From Ornithinibacillus caprae (GTDB taxonomy: Bacteria; Bacillota; Bacilli; Bacillales; Amphibacillaceae): DNA of 64,000 nt. The stretch is from contig NZ_WOCA01000006.1 in NCBI RefSeq assembly GCF_009728145.1, positions 1 through 64,000 of the forward strand. The letters are read 5' to 3'. Both the position numbers and the translations under genes were made by a program. The notes under the pieces were generated by a model that was given only the letters and a program-made list of their open reading frames with translations, did not search any database and was not told the origin of the DNA. Positions 7,707 through 47,457 of this stretch are shown one piece after another (the stretch's first letter is position 1; the number at the start of each line of letters is the position of its first letter).

Positions 7707-8111
7707 TTAACTACTCTTTGAAAAGGTCTCTTTTACGACAATAGTTTGTGTGATCTTGGATTTCTTACAATCTGTAAAATCCTTTTCTTCTACTAATCCT
7801 AGCTTAATTGCTGATTCAAGCTTTTCTGTATCTGGGCGTCTTACTTCGACAATGAAATCGTTCAAATTTAACTCTTCCAATTTTTCAATGGTGTGATCAT
7901 CATCGTAACGGACGGAAGAACGAATTTGCCTTTGTAGTTTATAGTTCCCTCGCTGTATTTCTCCTTTACTCTCCTTGCCAAATGAGTCATCCAAGAGTTC
8001 ATGAAACTTTTTCTTCAAATAATTCATTTCCTGCTCAATATCTTTCTTTTGTTTGTTCAGCTCATAGTATCTTTTTATATCTTCTTCGGTGATGGTTAAA
8101 GCCTCCTCCAT
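7707..8111 (-). CDS. Unrecognised coiled-coil protein
   Basis: The 134-residue product starts MEEALTITEEDIKRYYELNK. GGAGGT lies six bases before the ATG at 8111; the next in-frame ATG upstream lies inside that ribosome site, so I reject it. Residues 10-50 form a strongly charged coiled coil, followed by a basic stretch and a C-terminal region rich in Glu, Lys and Thr. No catalytic motif or membrane segment is visible. I do not recognise the family. It is monocistronic, between the CNNM gene and the nickel operon. Confidence 0.7.
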   Translation of the reverse strand: MEEALTITEEDIKRYYELNKQKKDIEQEMNYLKKKFHELLDDSFGKESKGEIQRGNYKLQRQIRSSVRYDDDHTIEKLEELNLNDFIVEVRRPDTEKLESAIKLGLVEEKDFTDCKKSKITQTIVVKETFSKSS

Positions 8112-8177
8112 ATTTGGAACCTCCATTCTAATCTAGTTGATTTATATGTATGAAGGAGGGGGTTCTTTCATGACTCG

Positions 8178-8262: not shown

Positions 8263-8994
8263 TTAGTTAAGTATGCTTTTTTCTACAACGATGAAACATA
8301 GAATTAATATAATCGTACAGGAAGTCTTAATAAGATCTAGATGACCGATCTTTTGCACATTCTGAAAGGTTAATTTCCCTGTGAAGCCTCGTGAGGCCAT
8401 AGCTTCATACATTTTATCAGAACGTTGAATTGCTTTTGTAAGGAGTGACGCAATCAAATGACCATATATTTTTAAACTAGCAATCCGTAAACCTCCTGAA
8501 AAAAAACGCGATTTTGCAGCGGTAAGCATCTTGTCAATATCATCCAAAAATAAAAATACGTATCGATACGATAAAATTAAGATGGTGACTAAAACCGGGG
8601 GCATTTTTAATCCAACTAAACTATTCATTAAGTCATCTAGTGATTGGGTTTCTAGTACAATTGTAATTACCGTCATTGAAGTGAAAGCTTTTATGATAAT
8701 AGCAAGGGCAAATAGTGCATGGTCTGTGCTGTATTGCCATAACAGGGGGACGGTCATAAGTAACAGAAAAGGTGTTATGATTAAATATCGTTTTAGTAAC
8801 AGTGAAAATGATATTCTTATAAATAGAAAAAATATAACTACTAGAATATAAGTAAGTAATAACATAGAAGGAGTTTCTAGACTGATGACCCCAAATATAT
8901 AGCAAATAGCTGCAATAAGTTTAGATCTAGCCTCCCAAGAAGTAGCCCCATTTGGAATTGCGGAAAACCTTCCTTCTTTGGATGCATTTTCCAT
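8263..8994 (-). CDS. nikQ: ECF transporter T component, nickel/cobalt (NikQ/CbiQ)
   Basis: The 243-residue membrane protein carries the EcfT signatures: several N-terminal helices, then a cytoplasmic loop with AAKSRFFSGG and YEAMASRGFTG, the two Ala-Arg-Gly type coupling motifs that touch the ATPases. AAGGTGG precedes the ATG at 8994. It is the last gene of the nikM-accessory-accessory-nikQ operon. The matching ATPase (nikO) is not next to it but 4 kb away. In the family, NikQ couples ATP hydrolysis to metal release by NikM. Confidence 0.85.
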   Translation of the reverse strand: MENASKEGRFSAIPNGATSWEARSKLIAAICYIFGVISLETPSMLLLTYILVVIFFLFIRISFSLLLKRYLIITPFLLLMTVPLLWQYSTDHALFALAIIIKAFTSMTVITIVLETQSLDDLMNSLVGLKMPPVLVTILILSYRYVFLFLDDIDKMLTAAKSRFFSGGLRIASLKIYGHLIASLLTKAIQRSDKMYEAMASRGFTGKLTFQNVQKIGHLDLIKTSCTIILILCFIVVEKSILN

Positions 8995-9004
8995 GGTAAC
9001 CACC

Positions 9005-9835
9005 TTAATTCAATTTCTTTCTTAGAAAAACTAAGGTTATAGCAGAACCAATTAATAGGCCTATCACAAGCATAGCTACAAGGGACCAATTACTTGTTTG
9101 GGGTTGTTCATTTTCGTCACTAGATGTATCAAGTAAAAATGTAGATGTATTGCTTATCACATCATAATCCTCACCGTTTATTGAACCAGATTCTTCCTCG
9201 ATTAGATTTGCTCTAATGAGCCATTTACCTTCTGACTCCAACTCAAACTGAAAGCTACCTTTTTCATCCGTTGTAGTCTCTAAAATCTCATGTTTGGGTC
9301 CATATGCGATAACTGTAGCCTCACTAACAGCAGAGTTATCTAACAAAATATTTCCAGAGAAGGAACCAGTTGAAAAATCAGATATATCGGTGCTTGGAAC
9401 AATCTCAAATTCCATATTAACTGCCTCTTCGGTGTTCGTATTTTCGTTTCCGACATGATGTACAATTTTTGCCATATGATTACTTAATTGTGTAACATCT
9501 TCATCCTCAGGGGTATATGTACTCTTTTCCCGAAGAGCCCAAAATGTGTACGTACCCTCTTTTTTAATTGGGACATAAGCTCTAGAATAAACACCTGCTT
9601 CTTCTAGGTTCAATTGTTCTACCGCTCCGTCTGGATAACGTACAAATAGTTGATAGTCGGTAGGGCTTGATTCACTAACATAGTCTCTAATATGTCCCCA
9701 TAAGATGTCGACTCTCAACTCTCCACTATCTTCAAACTCATCAACTTGAATAAACAATTCGTGCGCAGATACTTGTGGTAAGTATATAAATAGGGAGCAT
9801 ACCACGATCAAAAAAATAACAAAAGATTTTCTCAT
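9005..9835 (-). CDS. DUF4198-type extracytoplasmic accessory protein of the nickel transporter (NikK-like)
   Basis: The 276-residue product has a signal peptide (1-24, ending VSAHE), a DUF4198-like beta domain (about 25-130), a second carboxypeptidase-regulatory-like beta domain (about 155-225) and a C-terminal membrane anchor followed by RKK. The mature N-terminus begins with a His that could bind metal. Such proteins accompany nickel ECF transporters (Nik(K)MLQO types) and are absent from the cobalt CbiMNQO systems, which carry CbiN instead. It lies 17 bases downstream of the second accessory gene and 10 bases upstream of nikQ. Confidence 0.75.
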   Translation of the reverse strand: MRKSFVIFLIVVCSLFIYLPQVSAHELFIQVDEFEDSGELRVDILWGHIRDYVSESSPTDYQLFVRYPDGAVEQLNLEEAGVYSRAYVPIKKEGTYTFWALREKSTYTPEDEDVTQLSNHMAKIVHHVGNENTNTEEAVNMEFEIVPSTDISDFSTGSFSGNILLDNSAVSEATVIAYGPKHEILETTTDEKGSFQFELESEGKWLIRANLIEEESGSINGEDYDVISNTSTFLLDTSSDENEQPQTSNWSLVAMLVIGLLIGSAITLVFLRKKLN

Positions 9836-9852
9836 GTTACACCTCTTAACAC

Positions 9853-10269
9853 TTATTTTCTTTTGGTACGGAAATAGAATATAGAAGCTATAAAGCTCAA
9901 AATAGATAATCCAAGTAATACCTTAATCAACTTAGGGATCGTTTCCTCCTGGGCTTCATTACGTAACGAGGCAGCACGGTGTCCTAACCCATCATCCGCT
10001 ATCATTCTATGTACTTGTAATTGCTTATCATACTCTAGGTAGCCATTTTCATCTACTTGTTTTTTCTCTATGAGAGCATTCCCGTTTTTATCATACAAAG
10101 TAACTTCAGCCATCTTTGCAGGTGATCCATTGTCATAGTGTACAAATATAAGACCATCTTCTGCATGATCGATTATCATTTTATGGGCAAATATTGTTTG
10201 TGGGGTTGTAATTAGGTATACAACTACGGAGAATAGCAGTATTAATATGGAACTATATGATTTGTTCAT
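9853..10269 (-). CDS. Small membrane-anchored accessory protein of the nickel transporter (NikL-like)
   Basis: The 138-residue product has a signal peptide (about 1-28, cleaved near IFAHK), an extracytoplasmic beta domain with several His residues, and a C-terminal transmembrane helix ending in RTKRK. Its start overlaps the nikM stop by four bases, so the two are translationally coupled. Size, topology and position match the NikL/NikN-type accessory subunits of nickel ECF transporters. Assignment to NikL specifically is by context. Confidence 0.7.
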   Translation of the reverse strand: MNKSYSSILILLFSVVVYLITTPQTIFAHKMIIDHAEDGLIFVHYDNGSPAKMAEVTLYDKNGNALIEKKQVDENGYLEYDKQLQVHRMIADDGLGHRAASLRNEAQEETIPKLIKVLLGLSILSFIASIFYFRTKRK

Positions 10270-10895
10270 GTTTTTGAACCTCCTGTTTCCATGGAGGTAT
10301 GTTTAAATAAACTAGGTCTCATTGCATAAAGATGCTTAACAGCAAATCCGGTTAATACGCCTTCAAGCAATGCTAGGGGGAAATAAGCCATTAAAACAAT
10401 TTGAATAACAGAGAAAGCTCCATTCCCGTAACGTTCATTGGATAATAAAAGGAGTGTAATTAATAATAAAACTCCAATACAGATGGCAATGAATCCTCCA
10501 ATAAAACCTTTCCAAAAGATTGGTATTTTCTTTACATATGTAAAGAACGAATGGACCAAAAGGGCTGGTAATGACATTAGCAGAAAATTAGCACCAAATG
10601 TACTGATTCCTCCATGTTGAAATAATAGGGCTTGGAGTATTAAACCTACGAATACAGCTAAAGGAGCTCGTCGGCCGAGAATTAATCCGAGAAATCCACC
10701 TAATAAGGGGTGGATAGAGGTAGGACCAATTGGAATATTGATTAAGGATGCAACAAAAAATGCACCAGATAGTAAGCTGATTTTAGGGATTTCCTCTTCT
10801 TTTATTCCTTTAAGGGAATAAGTGAGTACACCAACAGCCGCTATCGTAGTAGTTGCTGCAATCGAAATATTTAATACACCATCCGTTACATGCAA
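10266..10895 (-). CDS. nikM: ECF transporter S component, nickel (NikM/CbiM)
   Basis: The 209-residue membrane protein has the CbiM/NikM core, including PTSIHPLLGGFLG with the metal-binding His. I place the start at TTG 10895, not at ATG 10901. The GGAGG site is only one base from the ATG but seven bases from the TTG, and the TTG gives the N-terminus Met-His-Val-Thr-Asp-Gly. In this family the N-terminal amine, His2 and a later His bind Ni2+ or Co2+, so an exact Met-His start matters. It heads the nikM-accessory-accessory-nikQ operon. Confidence 0.88.
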   Translation of the reverse strand: MHVTDGVLNISIAATTTIAAVGVLTYSLKGIKEEEIPKISLLSGAFFVASLINIPIGPTSIHPLLGGFLGLILGRRAPLAVFVGLILQALLFQHGGISTFGANFLLMSLPALLVHSFFTYVKKIPIFWKGFIGGFIAICIGVLLLITLLLLSNERYGNGAFSVIQIVLMAYFPLALLEGVLTGFAVKHLYAMRPSLFKHTSMETGGSKT

Positions 10896-11007
10896 AAGCA
10901 TCCCTCCTCACATTTAAAGATCAATACAACTAAATATATTATGTTTTTTACATGAATATGAGTGGGGTGTGTAAATAATGCTCGTTGAGTGTTTATGTGA
11001 TAGTATA

Positions 11008-11057: not shown

Positions 11058-11348
11058 TTAACGATGTGGAACATATTGCCCTAGCGTTTGTTGTGTATGC
11101 AACGTATGCGAAAAGCCTTTTGGATGGGGCTTTTTGTAATCGTCTGACGGCCAATGTAAAATGTTTAATTTATTATAGGTTACTGGTTGGTCTGGTGCAT
11201 ATGCACATACATTGCCTTTGTTTTTGTTGCCACCTTTAACTTTCTGTTGCTGTGGAAATTGAGACCATCCTTGATATGGAACATTTGTGTAGGGAATGCC
11301 TTGATTTCCGTAATACATAGGAACTCCTGGTTGGTAATAGTAAGTCAA
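11058..11348 (-). CDS. Tyr/Gly/Pro/Gln-rich small protein, possible spore coat component
   Basis: The 96-residue product starts MTYYYQPGVPMYYGNQG from a TTG six bases after GGAGGG. Its N-terminal half is rich in Tyr, Pro, Gly and Gln, followed by a short Lys/Gly/Asn linker and a C-terminal part containing CAYAPDQPVTYNKLNILHWPSD. The composition resembles spore coat or exosporium proteins, and four gerP-like genes start 275 bases away on the other strand. I do not recognise a named family, so the coat role is inference. Confidence 0.6.
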   Translation of the reverse strand: MTYYYQPGVPMYYGNQGIPYTNVPYQGWSQFPQQQKVKGGNKNKGNVCAYAPDQPVTYNKLNILHWPSDDYKKPHPKGFSHTLHTQQTLGQYVPHR

Positions 11349-11545: not shown

Positions 11546-11623
11546 TATGTTATGTACAATGCCTTCACAGTTTATTTGAGTCATGAATAGAATAATGTAT
11601 TACAGCAAAGCAAGGTGGTGCTT

Positions 11624-11851
11624 ATGGTTCCTACACACATTAATAATATATTCGCAATAAGAATTAATTCTGCTACTAGTAATTCTTCCATAAACTATGG
11701 AAATGCCGCACATAAAGGGCATCAAGCAAATATGAAGCAGAATACGGGGTATTGGCAGCCTGGAGATGCTAATTTTAGTCCATTACAGTTTAATAACTCC
11801 AATATATCTAATGATCCAGATGTTACGGATCAAGCACAGGCACAGGTCTAA
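11624..11851 (+). CDS. GerPA/GerPF-family spore germination protein
   Basis: The 75-residue product starts MVPTHINNIFAIRINS, six bases after AAGGTGG. It follows the gerPA/PF pattern: an N-terminal beta strand with INxxxxNSSINYGN, a glycine/asparagine-rich centre, and a C-terminal NDPDVTDQAQ motif. GerP proteins sit in the inner coat and help germinants reach their receptors. The next gene is a paralogue (TNNIFGIRINN shared), and gerPD- and gerPC-like genes follow on the same strand, so this is a small gerP-type operon, probably sigma-K dependent. Confidence 0.78.
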   Translation: MVPTHINNIFAIRINSATSNSSINYGNAAHKGHQANMKQNTGYWQPGDANFSPLQFNNSNISNDPDVTDQAQAQV

Positions 11852-11931: not shown

Positions 11932-12156
11932 ATGAGTAGTCATACGAATAATATTTTTGGAATCCGCATTAATAATGTTGTTAGTAATGGTTCCGTGAAT
12001 TTTGGTAATACATGGCATACGGGACATCAAGCCAATTTGAAAGTTAATGTAGGATATTGGCATAGTGGAGATGCAAACAATAGTCCATTGCAATTTAATA
12101 ATGTGAATTATGCTAATGATTCCGATATAAATGATCAAGTGCAGAAGCAGTTATAA
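11932..12156 (+). CDS. GerPA/GerPF-family spore germination protein (second copy)
   Basis: The 74-residue product starts MSSHTNNIFGIRINNVVSNG, with ATAAGGAGG upstream. It shares GHQAN, the GYWxxGDAN motif and SPLQFNN with the preceding gene, so the two arose by duplication. The C-terminus NDSDINDQVQ matches the DPDVxDQ end of GerPF. It is 80 bases downstream of its paralogue and 16 bases upstream of the gerPD-like gene. Confidence 0.78.
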   Translation: MSSHTNNIFGIRINNVVSNGSVNFGNTWHTGHQANLKVNVGYWHSGDANNSPLQFNNVNYANDSDINDQVQKQL

Positions 12157-12415: not shown

Positions 12416-12895
12416 ATGAGTAAGAATCAACCGCATTATTATCCACAATATCGATATCATCCATTCCCCTTTCAAGGAACGTATTTTCAAAGCCCTTACT
12501 TTTTAATGCCTAATATACAAAAACAGGAACAAAATAATGAACCAAAGCAGAAAGCTGAAGAAGTGCAACAGCCGTATAACATCGTTGAGCATTTGGAAAA
12601 AATTTATAACAAACTGAATCAACTGGAAGAGGAAAATAAGCAGATTAAAGAAGAGCTAGAAAATAAAAAAGCGATTAAAGTTGAAAATGTAAATTATAAA
12701 ATTCAAGACTTACATGTGGAAGATTTATCTGGGGCATTGCTAGTTGGGCTAACCTCATGGAGTGATGCGGAGGAATTACAGGAGTTGCTGGCTGAGAATG
12801 GTCCTGTGATGTTTAACGATCTAAATACCGATGAGATGCAAAACAATATGGAGAACCAACAAATGCAAAATGAACAAAATGGAGAAAATGGATAA
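12416..12895 (+). CDS. gerPC: GerPC-like spore germination protein
   Basis: The 159-residue product has a Tyr/Pro/Phe-rich N-terminus (1-35), a coiled coil (about 58-88) and then VENVNYKIQDLHVEDLSGAL, which corresponds to the conserved IEYKFDQLKVExLEGTLNIGL block of GerPC. The tail is rich in Gln, Asn and Met. It lies 42 bases downstream of the gerPD-like gene and is followed by a strong terminator, so it closes the operon. No gerPB or gerPE homologue is visible here. Confidence 0.75.
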   Translation: MSKNQPHYYPQYRYHPFPFQGTYFQSPYFLMPNIQKQEQNNEPKQKAEEVQQPYNIVEHLEKIYNKLNQLEEENKQIKEELENKKAIKVENVNYKIQDLHVEDLSGALLVGLTSWSDAEELQELLAENGPVMFNDLNTDEMQNNMENQQMQNEQNGENG

Positions 12896-12942: not shown

Positions 12943-13779
12943 CTAATATTCATACTTATCTTTTTCATTGAGTTGCTTAAAAAGTAATCGAAAAGCTTCT
13001 TGCTCATTTATTGGAAGTTTATTAGATGAAAACTCTGGAACCATTTTAAACGTTCTAGCAATAATAGGTAAGTGAAGGTTTGCTTCGCGAATATATTTTT
13101 CATCCGCTAGCAATTGATTATCCCCTACGGCTAATATTTTTCCATCCTTGAGTAGGACAACCATATCAGCCCAAGAGGCAGCAAAATTCACATCATGTGT
13201 GGATAATAATATGGTTTTCCCCATATAATGCAGTCCTTGCAACAAGCCAGCAATCTCATCTTGACCAGCTGGATCCAAGAATGCCATTGGCTCATCTAAA
13301 ATAACTATATCTGGACGCATTGCAAGAATTCCTGCAATGGCAACTCGTTTTTTTTGTCCATAACTTAAATGATAAGGTGCTCTGTCCTTGTATTCTAGCA
13401 TTCCTACATTGCCTAATGCGACTGTACACATTTCATTAATATCTTCCTCTGACATATGTAAATTACGTGGTCCAAAAGCGACGTCATCCCAAACGGTACC
13501 GGAAAATACCTGGTCATCTGGATCTTGGAAAACCAATCCAACCTGCTCTCTAATAAAATGTGCATTTTTTTTCGTTACCATATTTCCTAAAATAGAAATG
13601 GTTCCTTCGTTTGGTACTTTTAATCCGTTTAGGTGATGTAAGAGGGTCGACTTTCCGGCGCCATTTGGTCCAAGCAGCGCTACTTTAACTCCAATGGGTA
13701 TTGTTAACGTTATATCTTTTAGCGCTTCTATACCATTATCATAACGAAAAGTTACCTTATTCATTTCAATTGCATTCAT
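12943..13779 (-). CDS. nikO: ECF transporter ATPase, nickel/cobalt (NikO/CbiO)
   Basis: The 278-residue ABC ATPase has Walker A (GPNGAGKST), the Q-loop VFQDPDDQVF typical of ECF ATPases, signature LSYGQKKRVAIAG, Walker B (IVILDEP) and the switch His (LLSTHDV). The ATG at 13779 follows AGGGGGAAAG. It is transcribed in the same direction as nikM-nikQ but is separated from it by the divergent spore genes, so it must have its own transcript. It most likely powers the NikM/NikQ complex. A terminal extension of about 45 residues after the ABC core is normal for CbiO. Confidence 0.85.
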   Translation of the reverse strand: MNAIEMNKVTFRYDNGIEALKDITLTIPIGVKVALLGPNGAGKSTLLHHLNGLKVPNEGTISILGNMVTKKNAHFIREQVGLVFQDPDDQVFSGTVWDDVAFGPRNLHMSEEDINEMCTVALGNVGMLEYKDRAPYHLSYGQKKRVAIAGILAMRPDIVILDEPMAFLDPAGQDEIAGLLQGLHYMGKTILLSTHDVNFAASWADMVVLLKDGKILAVGDNQLLADEKYIREANLHLPIIARTFKMVPEFSSNKLPINEQEAFRLLFKQLNEKDKYEY

Positions 13780-13857
13780 TAAGCTTTCCCCCTGTCTAAC
13801 CTGTTTATAGTGGATCATGTCGTTACTAATGTAAAATGCACAGTAACATGAAACGAT

Positions 13858-14024: not shown

Positions 14025-15179
14025 TTATGTGAACTTTTTACCTAGTTTTCCCGCTTTTACCATAGCTGCAAGAACATCAGAAATTACTCTTGTTCCTAGT
14101 AGTGCAGTTTGATCACTAACATCATATGGTGGAGATACTTCCACTAATTCCATTCCACAGATTCCTTCACTTGCTACTCGACTTACAAATTGAATTCCTT
14201 CTCTAGGTAGGAATCCACCTGGCTCTGGCCATCCGGTACCAGGTACAAAACCGCTATCAAATGAATCGATATCGACACTTAGATAGACAGCTTTAGCCCC
14301 CTTCCAAGCTTTTTCCAATGCAATATCCGCTATTCGATCGATACCATGTTTTTCTATATCTCCCATTGTGATGACCGTGGTATTAAACTTGCGAACATTT
14401 TTAACTGCTTCACGTGGAACTTGCCATCCGCCTATTCCAACTTGAACAAGATTTTCAGGTGGGGCATTTGGAATATTAGTGGCATGGAACCATGGTGTAG
14501 TGTGCATTCGTTCATCCATATCTTTTTCTTGTAGATCAAGATGACGATCCATATGAATGATCCCGACTTTTCCATCTACATTATCAGCAATTGCACGTAA
14601 ACATGGATAACCAATAGCATGGTCTCCACCAAGCATTACTGGGAGTGTTCCTTGTGCGAAAACATGAGATACTGCTTTATAAATTTGGTCAAAGCTTTTT
14701 TCAATATTGGCAATGGTAAATACATCACCGACATCACACATCTTTAATGACTCTTTTAAATCCACTTGATATTCGTAACTGTATGATGTATACAATTTGG
14801 AAATTCTACGAATGGCTTCTGGGCCGAATCTTGCCCCTGCGCGATATGTTGTACCAATATCGAACGGCACACCAATAAAAGCTACATCATACTCACCAAC
14901 ACGTCGGACGTCTTCTAAAAATGGAGAACGTAAAAAAGTGGGGATACCAGCGAATGCAGGTCGTGGTTCACGTGTGAAAGTTGAAATAGTTCGATCACCA
15001 ATAGATGGAGCTGCTTCTAATCCATAGCGAAGGGATCGCTCAATTTCCTTTTCTCCTTCAACCTCTGGAATTTTAGCTTCTTCTTGTGCCTTTTCAATTC
15101 CTAAAAGATCGGTCGTCCGTTCACTTTCTAAGGCTTTTTTTTGCCTAAAGCTTAATCCATGATTATCAAAAAAACCCAA
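14025..15179 (-). CDS. gdmH: Ureohydrolase of the guanidine hydrolase (GdmH) type
   Basis: The 384-residue arginase-fold enzyme starts at TTG, behind AGGAGGTG. Metal-binding motifs are GGDH (184-187), DRHLD (211-215) and SVDIDSFD (301-308). Ordinary agmatinases have DAHxD; the Arg in place of Ala, the roughly 90-residue N-terminal extension, and the blocks TPWFHATN, GIGGWQVPRE and GTGWPEPGG match what I remember of cyanobacterial Ni2+-dependent guanidine hydrolase (Sll1077). The predicted reaction is guanidine to urea and ammonia. Its neighbours include a nickel ECF ATPase 245 bases downstream. I found no guanidine riboswitch in its 100-base leader. Alternatives are guanidinobutyrase or another guanidino-acid hydrolase. 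Confidence 0.75.
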   Translation of the reverse strand: MGFFDNHGLSFRQKKALESERTTDLLGIEKAQEEAKIPEVEGEKEIERSLRYGLEAAPSIGDRTISTFTREPRPAFAGIPTFLRSPFLEDVRRVGEYDVAFIGVPFDIGTTYRAGARFGPEAIRRISKLYTSYSYEYQVDLKESLKMCDVGDVFTIANIEKSFDQIYKAVSHVFAQGTLPVMLGGDHAIGYPCLRAIADNVDGKVGIIHMDRHLDLQEKDMDERMHTTPWFHATNIPNAPPENLVQVGIGGWQVPREAVKNVRKFNTTVITMGDIEKHGIDRIADIALEKAWKGAKAVYLSVDIDSFDSGFVPGTGWPEPGGFLPREGIQFVSRVASEGICGMELVEVSPPYDVSDQTALLGTRVISDVLAAMVKAGKLGKKFT

Positions 15180-15280
15180 ATAAACACCTCCTGTTGCCTA
15201 GACCTTTTTGTTATATCTTTCGTATCGATTAAGTATATTCAGCATGAAGCTTATTTCATGCAAAAATATCTCGATATTCT

Positions 15281-15787
15281 TTAATCACTTTCCTCAAGAT
15301 CCTGGATCTCAAGCTTTTTCAATGTTTCCTTCGTACGGATTAATCGATGTAAATGAACGTAGAGATATCCGTACTGGTAAGAAGCACTGATTTTGTCATG
15401 ACGACAAGGGTATGGCAATTTTACCTTCCGAATAACTGGACCTTGATAGAGCTCTGATTGAATGGGGCGAAATCCTTTATGATTAATCTGTATATACCCG
15501 GAGATCTCCAGGGTTTTGTCATATACATCAATTTCAACATCTTCAAGCATTAATCCTGGTGCTCTAAATATAAGCAAAAGTTCATTTTCCAGTTCACACA
15601 TGTCAACCTTCATACTAGAGGTATTGACTGAATTGGACTGATTATTATTATTATTATTATTATTATTGACTTCTGATCCTTCTTCATTGTTTTCTAGAAA
15701 ATCAAAGCTTGAAAAGAAATCTTCGCCAAGGAAGTTTGGTAGTTTCTCGTTCCACTTCTTTGGCCAATATTTATTCAAAGATACCAC
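15281..15787 (-). CDS. Spore-coat-like Hsp20/alpha-crystallin protein with poly-Asn tract
   Basis: The 168-residue product has a variable N-terminus (1-60) with nine consecutive Asn codons. It is followed by an alpha-crystallin domain (about 62-150) with ELLLIFRAPGLMLEDVEIDVYD and a beta-strand pair around YQYGYLYVHL. Such short Hsp20 proteins in spore-formers (CotP/CotM-like) are often coat components, but that is inference here. It is about 100 bases upstream of the ureohydrolase, with a small hairpin between them, so cotranscription is possible. Confidence 0.72.
   Translation of the reverse strand: MVSLNKYWPKKWNEKLPNFLGEDFFSSFDFLENNEEGSEVNNNNNNNNNQSNSVNTSSMKVDMCELENELLLIFRAPGLMLEDVEIDVYDKTLEISGYIQINHKGFRPIQSELYQGPVIRKVKLPYPCRHDKISASYQYGYLYVHLHRLIRTKETLKKLEIQDLEESD
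15641..15668. repeat. ATT trinucleotide microsatellite inside the Hsp20 gene
   Basis: Nine uninterrupted units encode nine Asn residues (minus strand AAT). Copy number could vary by slippage without breaking the frame. Confidence 0.8.
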
Positions 15788-15908
15788 TCCCTTCTGCCCA
15801 GTTATAGATAGTTTAGTATAGAGGTACTAAAAAGGTGCATGTATGTATATGAGTTATAACAAGATCATGAATCCCATAGGATATAGAGGAAAGGTAGGAG
15901 GTGTTCTT

Positions 15909-16214
15909 GTGGATGATAAGGTTGTCCAGTTGGAAAAGCGAGTAAGGGAAATGGAGAAAAATAATGCAACTTTTCAAGCAGAGCTAAAAGAATTAAAGGT
16001 AGAACTAGATCTTTCCATTAAAAAGACGTTAGAGTCCTTAACTACCAATCAAGGGTTTGCAGGTAATGAAAAAATAAATTATTTACAGGAAGTTAATGAG
16101 CAAATGTTTCAGCAGAATCTTCGACTGAGAAATTTAATTGAGAAGTGTATACAAAACCACATAGTACCAACTCAGGATCAATACTATGAAGCCTTACGTG
16201 AAGATACTACGTGA
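15909..16214 (+). CDS. Unrecognised coiled-coil protein
   Basis: The 101-residue product starts at GTG 15909, seven bases after TAGGAGG; a longer in-frame start at 15843 lacks a ribosome site. About residues 5-45 form a heptad coiled coil (VVQLEKRVREMEKN). A second helical part begins near NYLQEVNEQMFQQN and the C-terminus is hydrophilic. No family is recognised. It is divergent from the Hsp20 gene, sharing a 120-base intergenic region, which fits a sporulation-associated pair but does not show it. Confidence 0.65.
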   Translation: MDDKVVQLEKRVREMEKNNATFQAELKELKVELDLSIKKTLESLTTNQGFAGNEKINYLQEVNEQMFQQNLRLRNLIEKCIQNHIVPTQDQYYEALREDTT

Positions 16215-45640: not shown

Positions 45641-45790
45641 AAAAAAACCTCTTCCTAAAAAAGGAAGAGGTTTTTACGCTCCGCTTCCTCTTATCTCGCA
45701 ATGATTCGCAGGATTTAGCACCGTGTAATAAAAATATTATCGGTTGCCGGGCTTCATAGGGCCATTCCCTCCGCCTTCTCTTGATAAGAG
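45641..45790 (-). promoter_or_regulatory. SAM-I (S-box) riboswitch with terminator, for the HcxA-like gene
   Basis: On the minus strand the aptamer (45790-45687) has CTTATCAAGAG, GGCGGAGGGA, CTATGAAGCCCGGCAACC, GGTGCTAAATCCTGC and GAGATAAGAG, the S-box core in order. The terminator (45672-45647, AACCTCTTCCT stem plus T-run) follows and competes with an antiterminator around GAGGAAGCGG. High SAM should end transcription. Confidence 0.95.
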
Positions 45791-47299: not shown

Positions 47300-47457
47300 A
47301 ACTTATCAAGAGTGACTGAGGGAACAGGCCCAGCGACGTCACAGCAACCTTCCTTTATGGAGTGGTGCTACCTCCTGCAGAATGATTACATTCTGAAAGA
47401 TAAGGCTTAAACAATAAATTTTGGTGCCCTCTTTCGGAATGGAAAGAGGTTTTTTTT
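47300..47457 (+). promoter_or_regulatory. SAM-I (S-box) riboswitch with terminator, for metNIQ
   Basis: The aptamer shows CTTATCAAGAG, GACTGAGGGA, GGCCC, GCAACC, a GTGGTGCTA-type block and GAAAGATAAG. The terminator follows at 47428-47449 (CCTCTTTC/GAAAGAGG) with eight T. Methionine uptake would be switched off at high SAM. Confidence 0.92.

Follow-up and report, generated by a model that had tools for sequence, protein, structure and literature searches.

The gene at positions 14025 to 15179 on the minus strand of the stretch analyzed here, 64,000 nucleotides of Ornithinibacillus caprae (contig NZ_WOCA01000006.1; hereafter the window), very probably encodes a guanidine hydrolase and lies in an island of spore-type genes and genes of a nickel ECF transporter. 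The reading that best explains this arrangement, to which a probability of about 0.6 is assigned, is that a nickel-dependent guanidine hydrolase is made in the mother cell from a sigma-E-type promoter and receives its nickel from the island transporter. The clade of the enzyme, its active-site residues, the co-occurrence of its gene with nikM, the absence of a riboswitch, and the conserved promoter pattern were computed here. The genes and predicted promoters of the island are as follows.

15843–16214, plus strand: small coiled-coil-like protein "coil8" (named by eye), a divergent island member (gene maps; no Pfam match)
15281–15787, minus strand: Hsp20/alpha-crystallin-like gene directly upstream of gdmH (Pfam, gene maps)
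15234–15261, minus strand: predicted sigma-E-type promoter of gdmH, -35 GCATG and -10 AATATA (pattern refined after inspection)
14025–15179, minus strand: gdmH-type guanidine hydrolase (ureohydrolase), TTG start, 384 amino acids (ORF, Pfam, PDB search, alignment, tree, model)
12943–13818, minus strand: NikO/CbiO-type ECF ATPase, next downstream of gdmH (TIGR01166, 217.5 bits, cut-off 211.8)
12416–12895, plus strand: GerPC-like spore protein (Pfam GerPC, 26.6 bits, cut-off 22.4)
11932–12156, plus strand: GerPA/GerPF-like spore protein (Pfam gerPA, 35.7 bits, cut-off 27.3)
11615–11851, plus strand: GerPA/GerPF-like spore protein (Pfam gerPA, 34.3 bits, cut-off 27.3)
11058–11348, minus strand: Tyr/Pro-rich island protein "coat11" (gene maps; no Pfam or NCBIfam match in the window protein)
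10935–10961, minus strand: predicted sigma-E-type promoter of nikM, -35 TCATATT and -10 AATATA (pattern scan)
10266–10901, minus strand: NikM/CbiM S component of the nickel ECF transporter (NF004907, 257.7 bits, cut-off 200; Pfam CbiM); visual inspection of the ribosome site makes the TTG at 10895 the probable true start
9853–10269, minus strand: NikL-like component (NF058648, 33 bits, under the cut-off of 100; gene maps)
9005–9835, minus strand: NikK-like component (Pfam DUF4198, 81.4 bits; we take DUF4198 to be NikK)
8263–9003, minus strand: NikQ/CbiQ T component (TIGR02454, 112.8 bits, cut-off 111.8)

The TTG start codon of gdmH is preceded by an AGGAGG box, and the open reading frame with its blocks GGDH (residues 184–187), DRHLD (211–215), SVDIDSFD (301–308), TPWFHATN, and GIGGWQVPRE was found as described in an earlier reading made from the letters alone (hereafter the sequence-only reading). 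The Pfam Arginase model (PF00491) matches GdmH with 263.3 bits and indicates an arginase fold, and the best NCBIfam models are both agmatinase models under their cut-offs (NF002564, 208.7 bits vs. 302; TIGR01230, 173.3 bits vs. 174.3). The expectation that automatic annotation would call the gene agmatinase or arginase was fair, as these two models rank highest and some plasmid relatives are so named: among 11 plasmid records holding gdmH-type genes 56.5–63.9% identical to the window protein, four are annotated as "agmatinase family protein" and seven have no annotation at that place. NZ_CP007516.1, NZ_CP031116.1, and Sinorhizobium fredii plasmids (2.2–2.5 Mb) hold gdmH-type genes with 57.8–63.9% identity. 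Plasmid spread of the Bacillaceae form of gdmH was rejected, since none of the 11 records is from Bacilli by name and the best reaches 63.9%. The long N-terminal extension of the protein is real but not special, since the guanidinase of Nitrospira inopinata (9fek) also has one (PMC11410670).

A PDB sequence search with GdmH returned the Synechocystis guanidine hydrolase as the best match (7esr/7oi1, E 7e-140) and that of N. inopinata as the second (9fek, E 2e-137), and the guanidinases were followed by guanidinobutyrase 3nio (E 4e-48). The local identity of GdmH is 58.2% to Synechocystis Sll1077/GdmH, 57.5% to the N. inopinata guanidinase, and 34.7% to 3nio. The genome encodes four further ureohydrolases, to which GdmH is 28.9, 33.3, 28.8, and 35.6% identical; each has DAH in place of DRH, and NCBIfam puts three of them over cut-off, as arginase, agmatinase, and HutG, with the fourth under every cut-off shown. 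The phylogeny that the sequence-only reading had proposed as a check placed the window protein and both characterized guanidinases in a clade of 67 among 72 rows (support 97/95), apart from an outgroup with long branches that consisted of guanidinobutyrase and the four paralogues, including the agmatinase. The underlying alignment left out L016 and the short or stop-containing L066, L097, L100, L101, L103, and L104, and the tree was additionally built without identical rows and the G-numbered copies of named genomes.

The six metal ligands H187, D211, H213, D215, D303, and D305, equivalent to H182, D207, H209, D211, D299, and D301 of N. inopinata, are kept in GdmH. The residues T105, H222, W313, and E344 of N. 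inopinata (T97 and W305 in Synechocystis) are described as important for guanidine in the part of the source available (PMC11410670), and their counterparts T111, H226, W317, and E347 (chain numbering) are all present. T111, R212, H226, E347, and all metal ligands are invariant across 73 aligned clade rows (67 distinct), but position 317 varies among these rows (52 W, 17 S, 4 T); after removal of copies, W occurs in 46 of 67 and Ser/Thr in 21 of 67. The proposal that DRHLD marks a guanidine hydrolase did not survive this comparison, as DRH is found throughout the clade (67/67 distinct rows), including the 21 rows that lack the specificity Trp, and R212 was rejected as a mark of specificity. 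In the alignment, the published specificity residues are the Trp within GTGWPEP and the second Thr within GTTYR, and the Trp would be the better mark. As the W-less relatives show, the substrate cannot be deduced from clade membership alone. The rows with T are three from Paenibacillus/Bacillus (L050, L051, and L098) and one alphaproteobacterial (L081), and the 17 with S (for example, L085, L086, L092, and L099) come from Micrococcaceae, alphaproteobacteria, and MAGs named only Proteobacteria or bacterium. Nickel transporter genes adjoin some W-less members, with NicO in L050 and HupE/UreJ in L085, and these proteins are possibly nickel ureohydrolases with another substrate.

An AlphaFold model of GdmH made from a 39-row alignment (pLDDT 82) superimposes on 9fek with Z 43.0 (rmsd 1.7 over 302 residues) and on 7esr with Z 42.6 (rmsd 1.9 over 304 residues), compared with Z 39.5 for metformin hydrolase and Z 34 for agmatinase. 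The top Foldseek matches of the model had an rmsd of 12–13 and a TM of 0.76, with 1.7–1.9 over about 300 residues in the second alignment. Confidence is low for residues 1–8, 74–77, 111–117 (T111 among them), and 382–384. The clade, the fold match, the published residues, and the riboswitches of relatives (see below) bear out the sequence-only naming of a guanidine hydrolase, with little doubt left about what the gene encodes, and the enzyme is a member of an already known family.

Against this identification stands the name that automatic annotation would give, agmatinase, which is largely refuted and highly improbable: TIGR01230 falls one bit short of its cut-off on GdmH, but another ureohydrolase of the genome passes the agmatinase cut-off with 294.6 bits beside a speE-like gene (named by eye), is only 33.3% identical to GdmH, and falls in a separate clade. 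It is also improbable, though less so, that GdmH is a nickel ureohydrolase with some small guanidino compound other than guanidine as its natural substrate. The W-less members of the clade would fit such an enzyme, as would the Km of N. inopinata for guanidine of ~14 mM and the discussion of another substrate by its authors in the text accessible to us (PMC11410670), but T111 and W317 are both kept in the window protein, and riboswitch linkage outside its group is found at W-bearing loci (9/19) and at none of the W-less loci (0/5; L050, L051, L086, L098, and L099).

The riboswitch evidence comes from 32 of the 69 named loci, 24 outside the group of the window gene and 8 inside it (Ammoniphilus L048 counted inside). 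A guanidine-I riboswitch over the Rfam gathering score lies upstream of gdmH on the same strand at 9 of the 24 outside loci (L052, L055, L057, L059, L061, L062, L070, L075, and L095), a lower bound since the upstream DNA is short in some loci, and the nine linked relatives are 63–68% identical to the window protein. In L055 and L070, the DNA that separates the riboswitch from gdmH encodes a binding protein, a permease, and an ATPase. Inside the group, no guanidine riboswitch was found at gdmH in any of nine loci (the window and eight others), and no such set of binding protein, permease, and ATPase genes occurs in the mapped gdmH surroundings. The window scan for guanidine riboswitch classes gave none at the gathering score, with classes other than guanidine-I searched in the window alone, and riboswitch control of this gdmH was rejected as no guanidine riboswitch is present at the gene. 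The only guanidine-I match of the genome, obtained with stricter filters, is on contig C7 before an SMR exporter gene pair (L126 2795–3631). Two divergent SAM riboswitches lie elsewhere in the window (45688–45790, minus strand; 47300–47406, plus strand).

Gene maps show that much of the island core is common to some 13 named genera, with mostly different flanking genes; for some loci, including L031 (G152), the maps show no gdmH ORF. Of 20 organisms in the group, counted without the decayed G152 and G-numbered copies of named genomes, 18 have the Hsp20 gene immediately upstream of gdmH; the exceptions, G153 and Ammoniphilus, have gdmH and Nik genes without Hsp20, and the spore genes are therefore not obligatory for the gdmH/Nik combination. 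Some Hsp20 match occurs in 94 of 159 genomes of the family sample, but close orthologues (E 2.1e-46 or better) occur in only eight, all gdmH-bearing; identity beyond these eight is at most 45%, and a branch with SH-aLRT 99 separates the eight from the other rows of a tree built on 29 of the 30 rows fetched (L161 left out). NikO alone among the Nik genes was found beside gdmH in L038, L040, L041, L054, and L076, and the place of coat11 is taken in some relatives by a protein that carries LysM and resembles coat11 in a GNVCA stretch. The identity of the spore genes is suggested by modest Pfam scores together with the neighborhood. Lipoprotein-like island proteins with a His/Asp-rich tail and internal HHHE/HHGE are encoded in Alkalihalobacterium and Halalkalibacter (L042 14126–14827, L044 13817–14464, and L043 14860–15498) and are perhaps a nickel-binding part. 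A second gdmH copy with 82% identity and one in-frame TGA is present in L143 (G199), where the 4.1 kb fetched contains no Hsp20 or NikO. Judging by their names, many carriers of the patchily distributed island come from salty or alkaline places.

The M, Q, and O components of NikKMLQO are present in the window by NCBIfam and Pfam, and the distribution of NikM ties the transporter to gdmH. In the family sample, gdmH occurs in 10 of 159 genomes, and exactly these 10 carry CbiM/NikM over cut-off (Fisher 4.7e-16, ignoring kinship), with an eleventh match (G091) under cut-off; the two genes lie apart in 3 of the 10 (G062, G063, and G156). In the order sample, which repeats the gdmH genomes G000 and G028 of the family sample, gdmH (E 1e-100 or better) occurs in 14 of 397 genomes, and CbiM is over cut-off in 13 of these 14 vs. 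60 of the 383 others (Fisher 1.3e-9, ignoring kinship); the one gdmH genome without CbiM (G416) carries a 57% relative. CbiM does not follow urease, as full-strength urease alpha (E under 1e-48) is found in 39 of 159 family genomes, only 4 of them CbiM-bearing. Urease is present in 4 of the 10 gdmH genomes of the family, but urease alpha was not found in the genome of the window, and urease as the client of the nickel transporter in this genome was rejected. HypA-type nickel loading was also rejected, as HypA had no match in this genome and was over cut-off in none of the 10 gdmH family genomes, with one weak match in G028; a search for HypB-like GTPases gave two strong cobW-family GTPases on C36, which may or may not be HypB. 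In G152 (L022/L031), gdmH is decayed by three TGA and one TAA codons, the adjoining NikM is intact, and the genome has urease; its nickel transporter may have changed client. Gene linkage and co-occurrence make it quite likely that the linked transporter supplies nickel to GdmH.

The sigma-factor scan used fixed letters, which we take to be the Bacillus subtilis consensus sequences, set before scanning. With these, no signal upstream of gdmH was significant (sigma-E z +1.65, sigma-H +1.79, sigma-G +1.42; sigma-E +1.4 on repetition), and sigma-K control of gdmH was rejected (z -2.0 and -2.9). An RAATATA block recurs upstream of gdmH: 23 of 29 regions contain it, and 20 of these 23 have a G 20 bases ahead of the block. 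It occurs at 14 of 19 gdmH loci vs. a shuffled mean of 2 (maximum 5, 400 shuffles), in 7 of 31 GerPF genes, and in at most 3 genes of every other island family. The relaxed pattern KMATR-N15-17-[AC]ATA[TC]A, chosen after this footprint had been seen, matches 15 of 26 gdmH regions (three near copies removed) vs. a shuffled mean of 0.37 and maximum of 3 (500 shuffles, which ignore shared ancestry). Wrong -35/-10 spacings gave 0 to 3 matches, and given the -10, the -35 was correctly spaced in 15 of 21 vs. a mean of 1.1. Compared with 2 of 267 non-island ORFs (mechanical ORFs of at least 100 amino acids, the NikO cluster among them), the pattern precedes 12 of 19 gdmH genes, window included (Fisher 9e-15, ignoring kinship), and 7 of 14 nikM genes (Fisher 5e-9, ignoring kinship), as well as 2 of 7 coil8 genes, 1 of 4 genes of another island family, and none in the remaining island families. 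One of the two non-island ORFs with the pattern is window 7707–8126. For nikM beside gdmH, the pattern is present in the window and in 11 of 17 further cases, three of these 11 being near copies, and absent in 6 of 17. For nikM away from gdmH, it is present in none of nine (two of them 44–51% second copies), and a common promoter for unlinked nikM was rejected.

The geometry of the gdmH pattern fits a mapped sigma-E promoter of Clostridioides difficile, ATA-N16-CATATATA, as given in the portion of the report available (PMC3789822), and a fixed spacing with 1 bp of play is described in the available text of another (PMC517825). Among the other island genes, with 25 shuffles each, a sigma-K-like signal precedes GerPF (z +5.7) and Hsp20 (z +3.5) and a sigma-E-like signal precedes coil8 (z +4.7) and nikM (z +2.5), with GerPF also scoring for sigma-A (+3.5) and sigma-H (+2.5). 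The upstream regions of coat11, GerPC, and c13 gave no sigma-K or sigma-E signal, and since coat-like genes thus lack a sporulation signal, confidence in sigma-E is slightly lowered; sigma-E control of gdmH still seems more probable than not. A 7-base inverted repeat seen by eye, GCATGAA-N6-TTCATGC (15242–15261), overlaps the predicted -35 of gdmH and is a possible operator.

The nickel assignment has to be weighed against cobalt transport for B12, with the co-occurrence of transporter and gdmH being incidental, which appears unlikely. The CbiM names of the components agree with cobalt, as do the 60 order-sample genomes that have CbiM over cut-off without gdmH; against it are the exact overlap of CbiM and gdmH in the family sample, the promoter type common to nikM and gdmH inside the island, and the NikK-like and NikL-like parts, which are tied to nickel uptake in the accessible portion of PMC2667541, a source that also reports five proteobacteria where a NikK/NikL-type set seems to serve cobalt. 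A more serious competitor, though still clearly the less probable account, is a standard guanidine hydrolase that works in growing cells, either for detoxification or to provide nitrogen, and whose spore-gene neighbors are there by chance. The enzyme clade and residues are those of known guanidinases, relatives are under guanidine-I riboswitches and some adjoin importer genes, urease is present in part of the family's gdmH genomes, and the fixed-consensus scan for sigma-E was not significant. The missing urease alpha in this genome, the absence of a riboswitch at gdmH in 9 of 9 scanned loci of the group, the lack of the importer set in the mapped neighborhood, the conserved sigma-E-type pattern, and an island kept while genes beyond it mostly differ all argue the other way. 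The nitrogen supply suggested by the sequence-only reading is accordingly weak as a role, given a genome with neither urease alpha nor HypA found, no riboswitch at the gene, and a neighborhood and promoter pattern of sporulation type.

According to the preferred reading of mother-cell expression, GdmH would be a binuclear nickel-dependent enzyme that converts guanidinium and water into urea and ammonium. Guanidine riboswitch control would be absent in this Bacillaceae lineage, with gdmH transcribed in the sporulating mother cell, and a NikKMLQO-type transporter expressed from a similar promoter would import the nickel without HypA. A private Hsp20-like protein and gerP-like paralogues would be made from the same island. 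Without urease, the product urea would stay or leave, and the benefit would lie in a single ammonium from each guanidine or in detoxification. As to purpose, a guess is that guanidine is cleared before the coat is assembled or during its assembly, and that growing cells use SMR export. It is doubtful that GdmH is located in the spore coat, and it is an equally tentative idea that the island enzyme is built into or around the forming spore as a guanidine-clearing or ammonium-releasing layer, with the riboswitch replaced by a sporulation sigma factor.

Known systems share parts of this arrangement. Synechocystis PCC 6803 GdmH/Sll1077 (7esr, 7oi1) has the same metal ligands, T/W specificity residues, and fold, and is accompanied in the available account by a guanidine-I riboswitch, an ABC importer, two nickel-delivery proteins, and urease (PMC12186494), whereas for gdmH of the window no riboswitch at the gene, HypA, or urease alpha was found, and the island around it combines spore genes with those of a nickel ECF transporter. 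For N. inopinata, the accessible text mentions no known nickel chaperone (PMC11410670) but, unlike here, a riboswitch and an APC permease (PMC11410670) and urease (PMC12186494, likewise in part). Closer relatives in Paenibacillus alkalitolerans (L070) and the MAG Bacillales bacterium RE-18aug17-241 (L052), with 67–68% identity and the W kept, also have nickel ECF genes downstream; unlike the window, they have a guanidine-I riboswitch upstream with importer genes between (permease and binding protein in L052). The island transporter likewise has M, Q, and O with K-like and L-like parts, as in NikKMLQO as far as it is described in the portions available (PMC2667541; Brucella ure2, PMC2868824), but its NikL-like part scores below the model cut-off, and it is linked to a guanidinase and spore genes, not to urease as in Brucella ure2 (PMC2868824). 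Metformin hydrolase (8snf, 8ryi), the next-best fold match, is also a nickel ureohydrolase but is only 24–26% identical to GdmH, heteromeric, and accompanied by hypA/hypB/hupE genes in the accessible text (PMC11399263).

Riboswitches that respond to guanidine occur widely, and its role in physiology was long elusive according to the available part of one account (PMC12186494). The literature search found nothing on guanidinase with Bacillus and nickel, no title on guanidinase in spore formers (wider result lists were looked at in part, with many subscription papers outside their scope), and guanidinase mentioned together with sporulation only in an unrelated context; new here are the proposed connection to sporulation, the accompanying transporter, and the lack of riboswitch control. 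For annotation, the lesson is that DRH is a mark of the clade and the Trp of GTGWPEP a better mark of specificity. The available text of a transporter survey lists 10 organisms with nickel-specific transporters, mostly NikABCDE, and no known nickel protein (PMC2667541), and GdmH is a candidate nickel client for transporters without a known client. If the preferred reading is true, guanidine chemistry would become part of spore formation in a lineage where a sporulation promoter stands in for the riboswitch.
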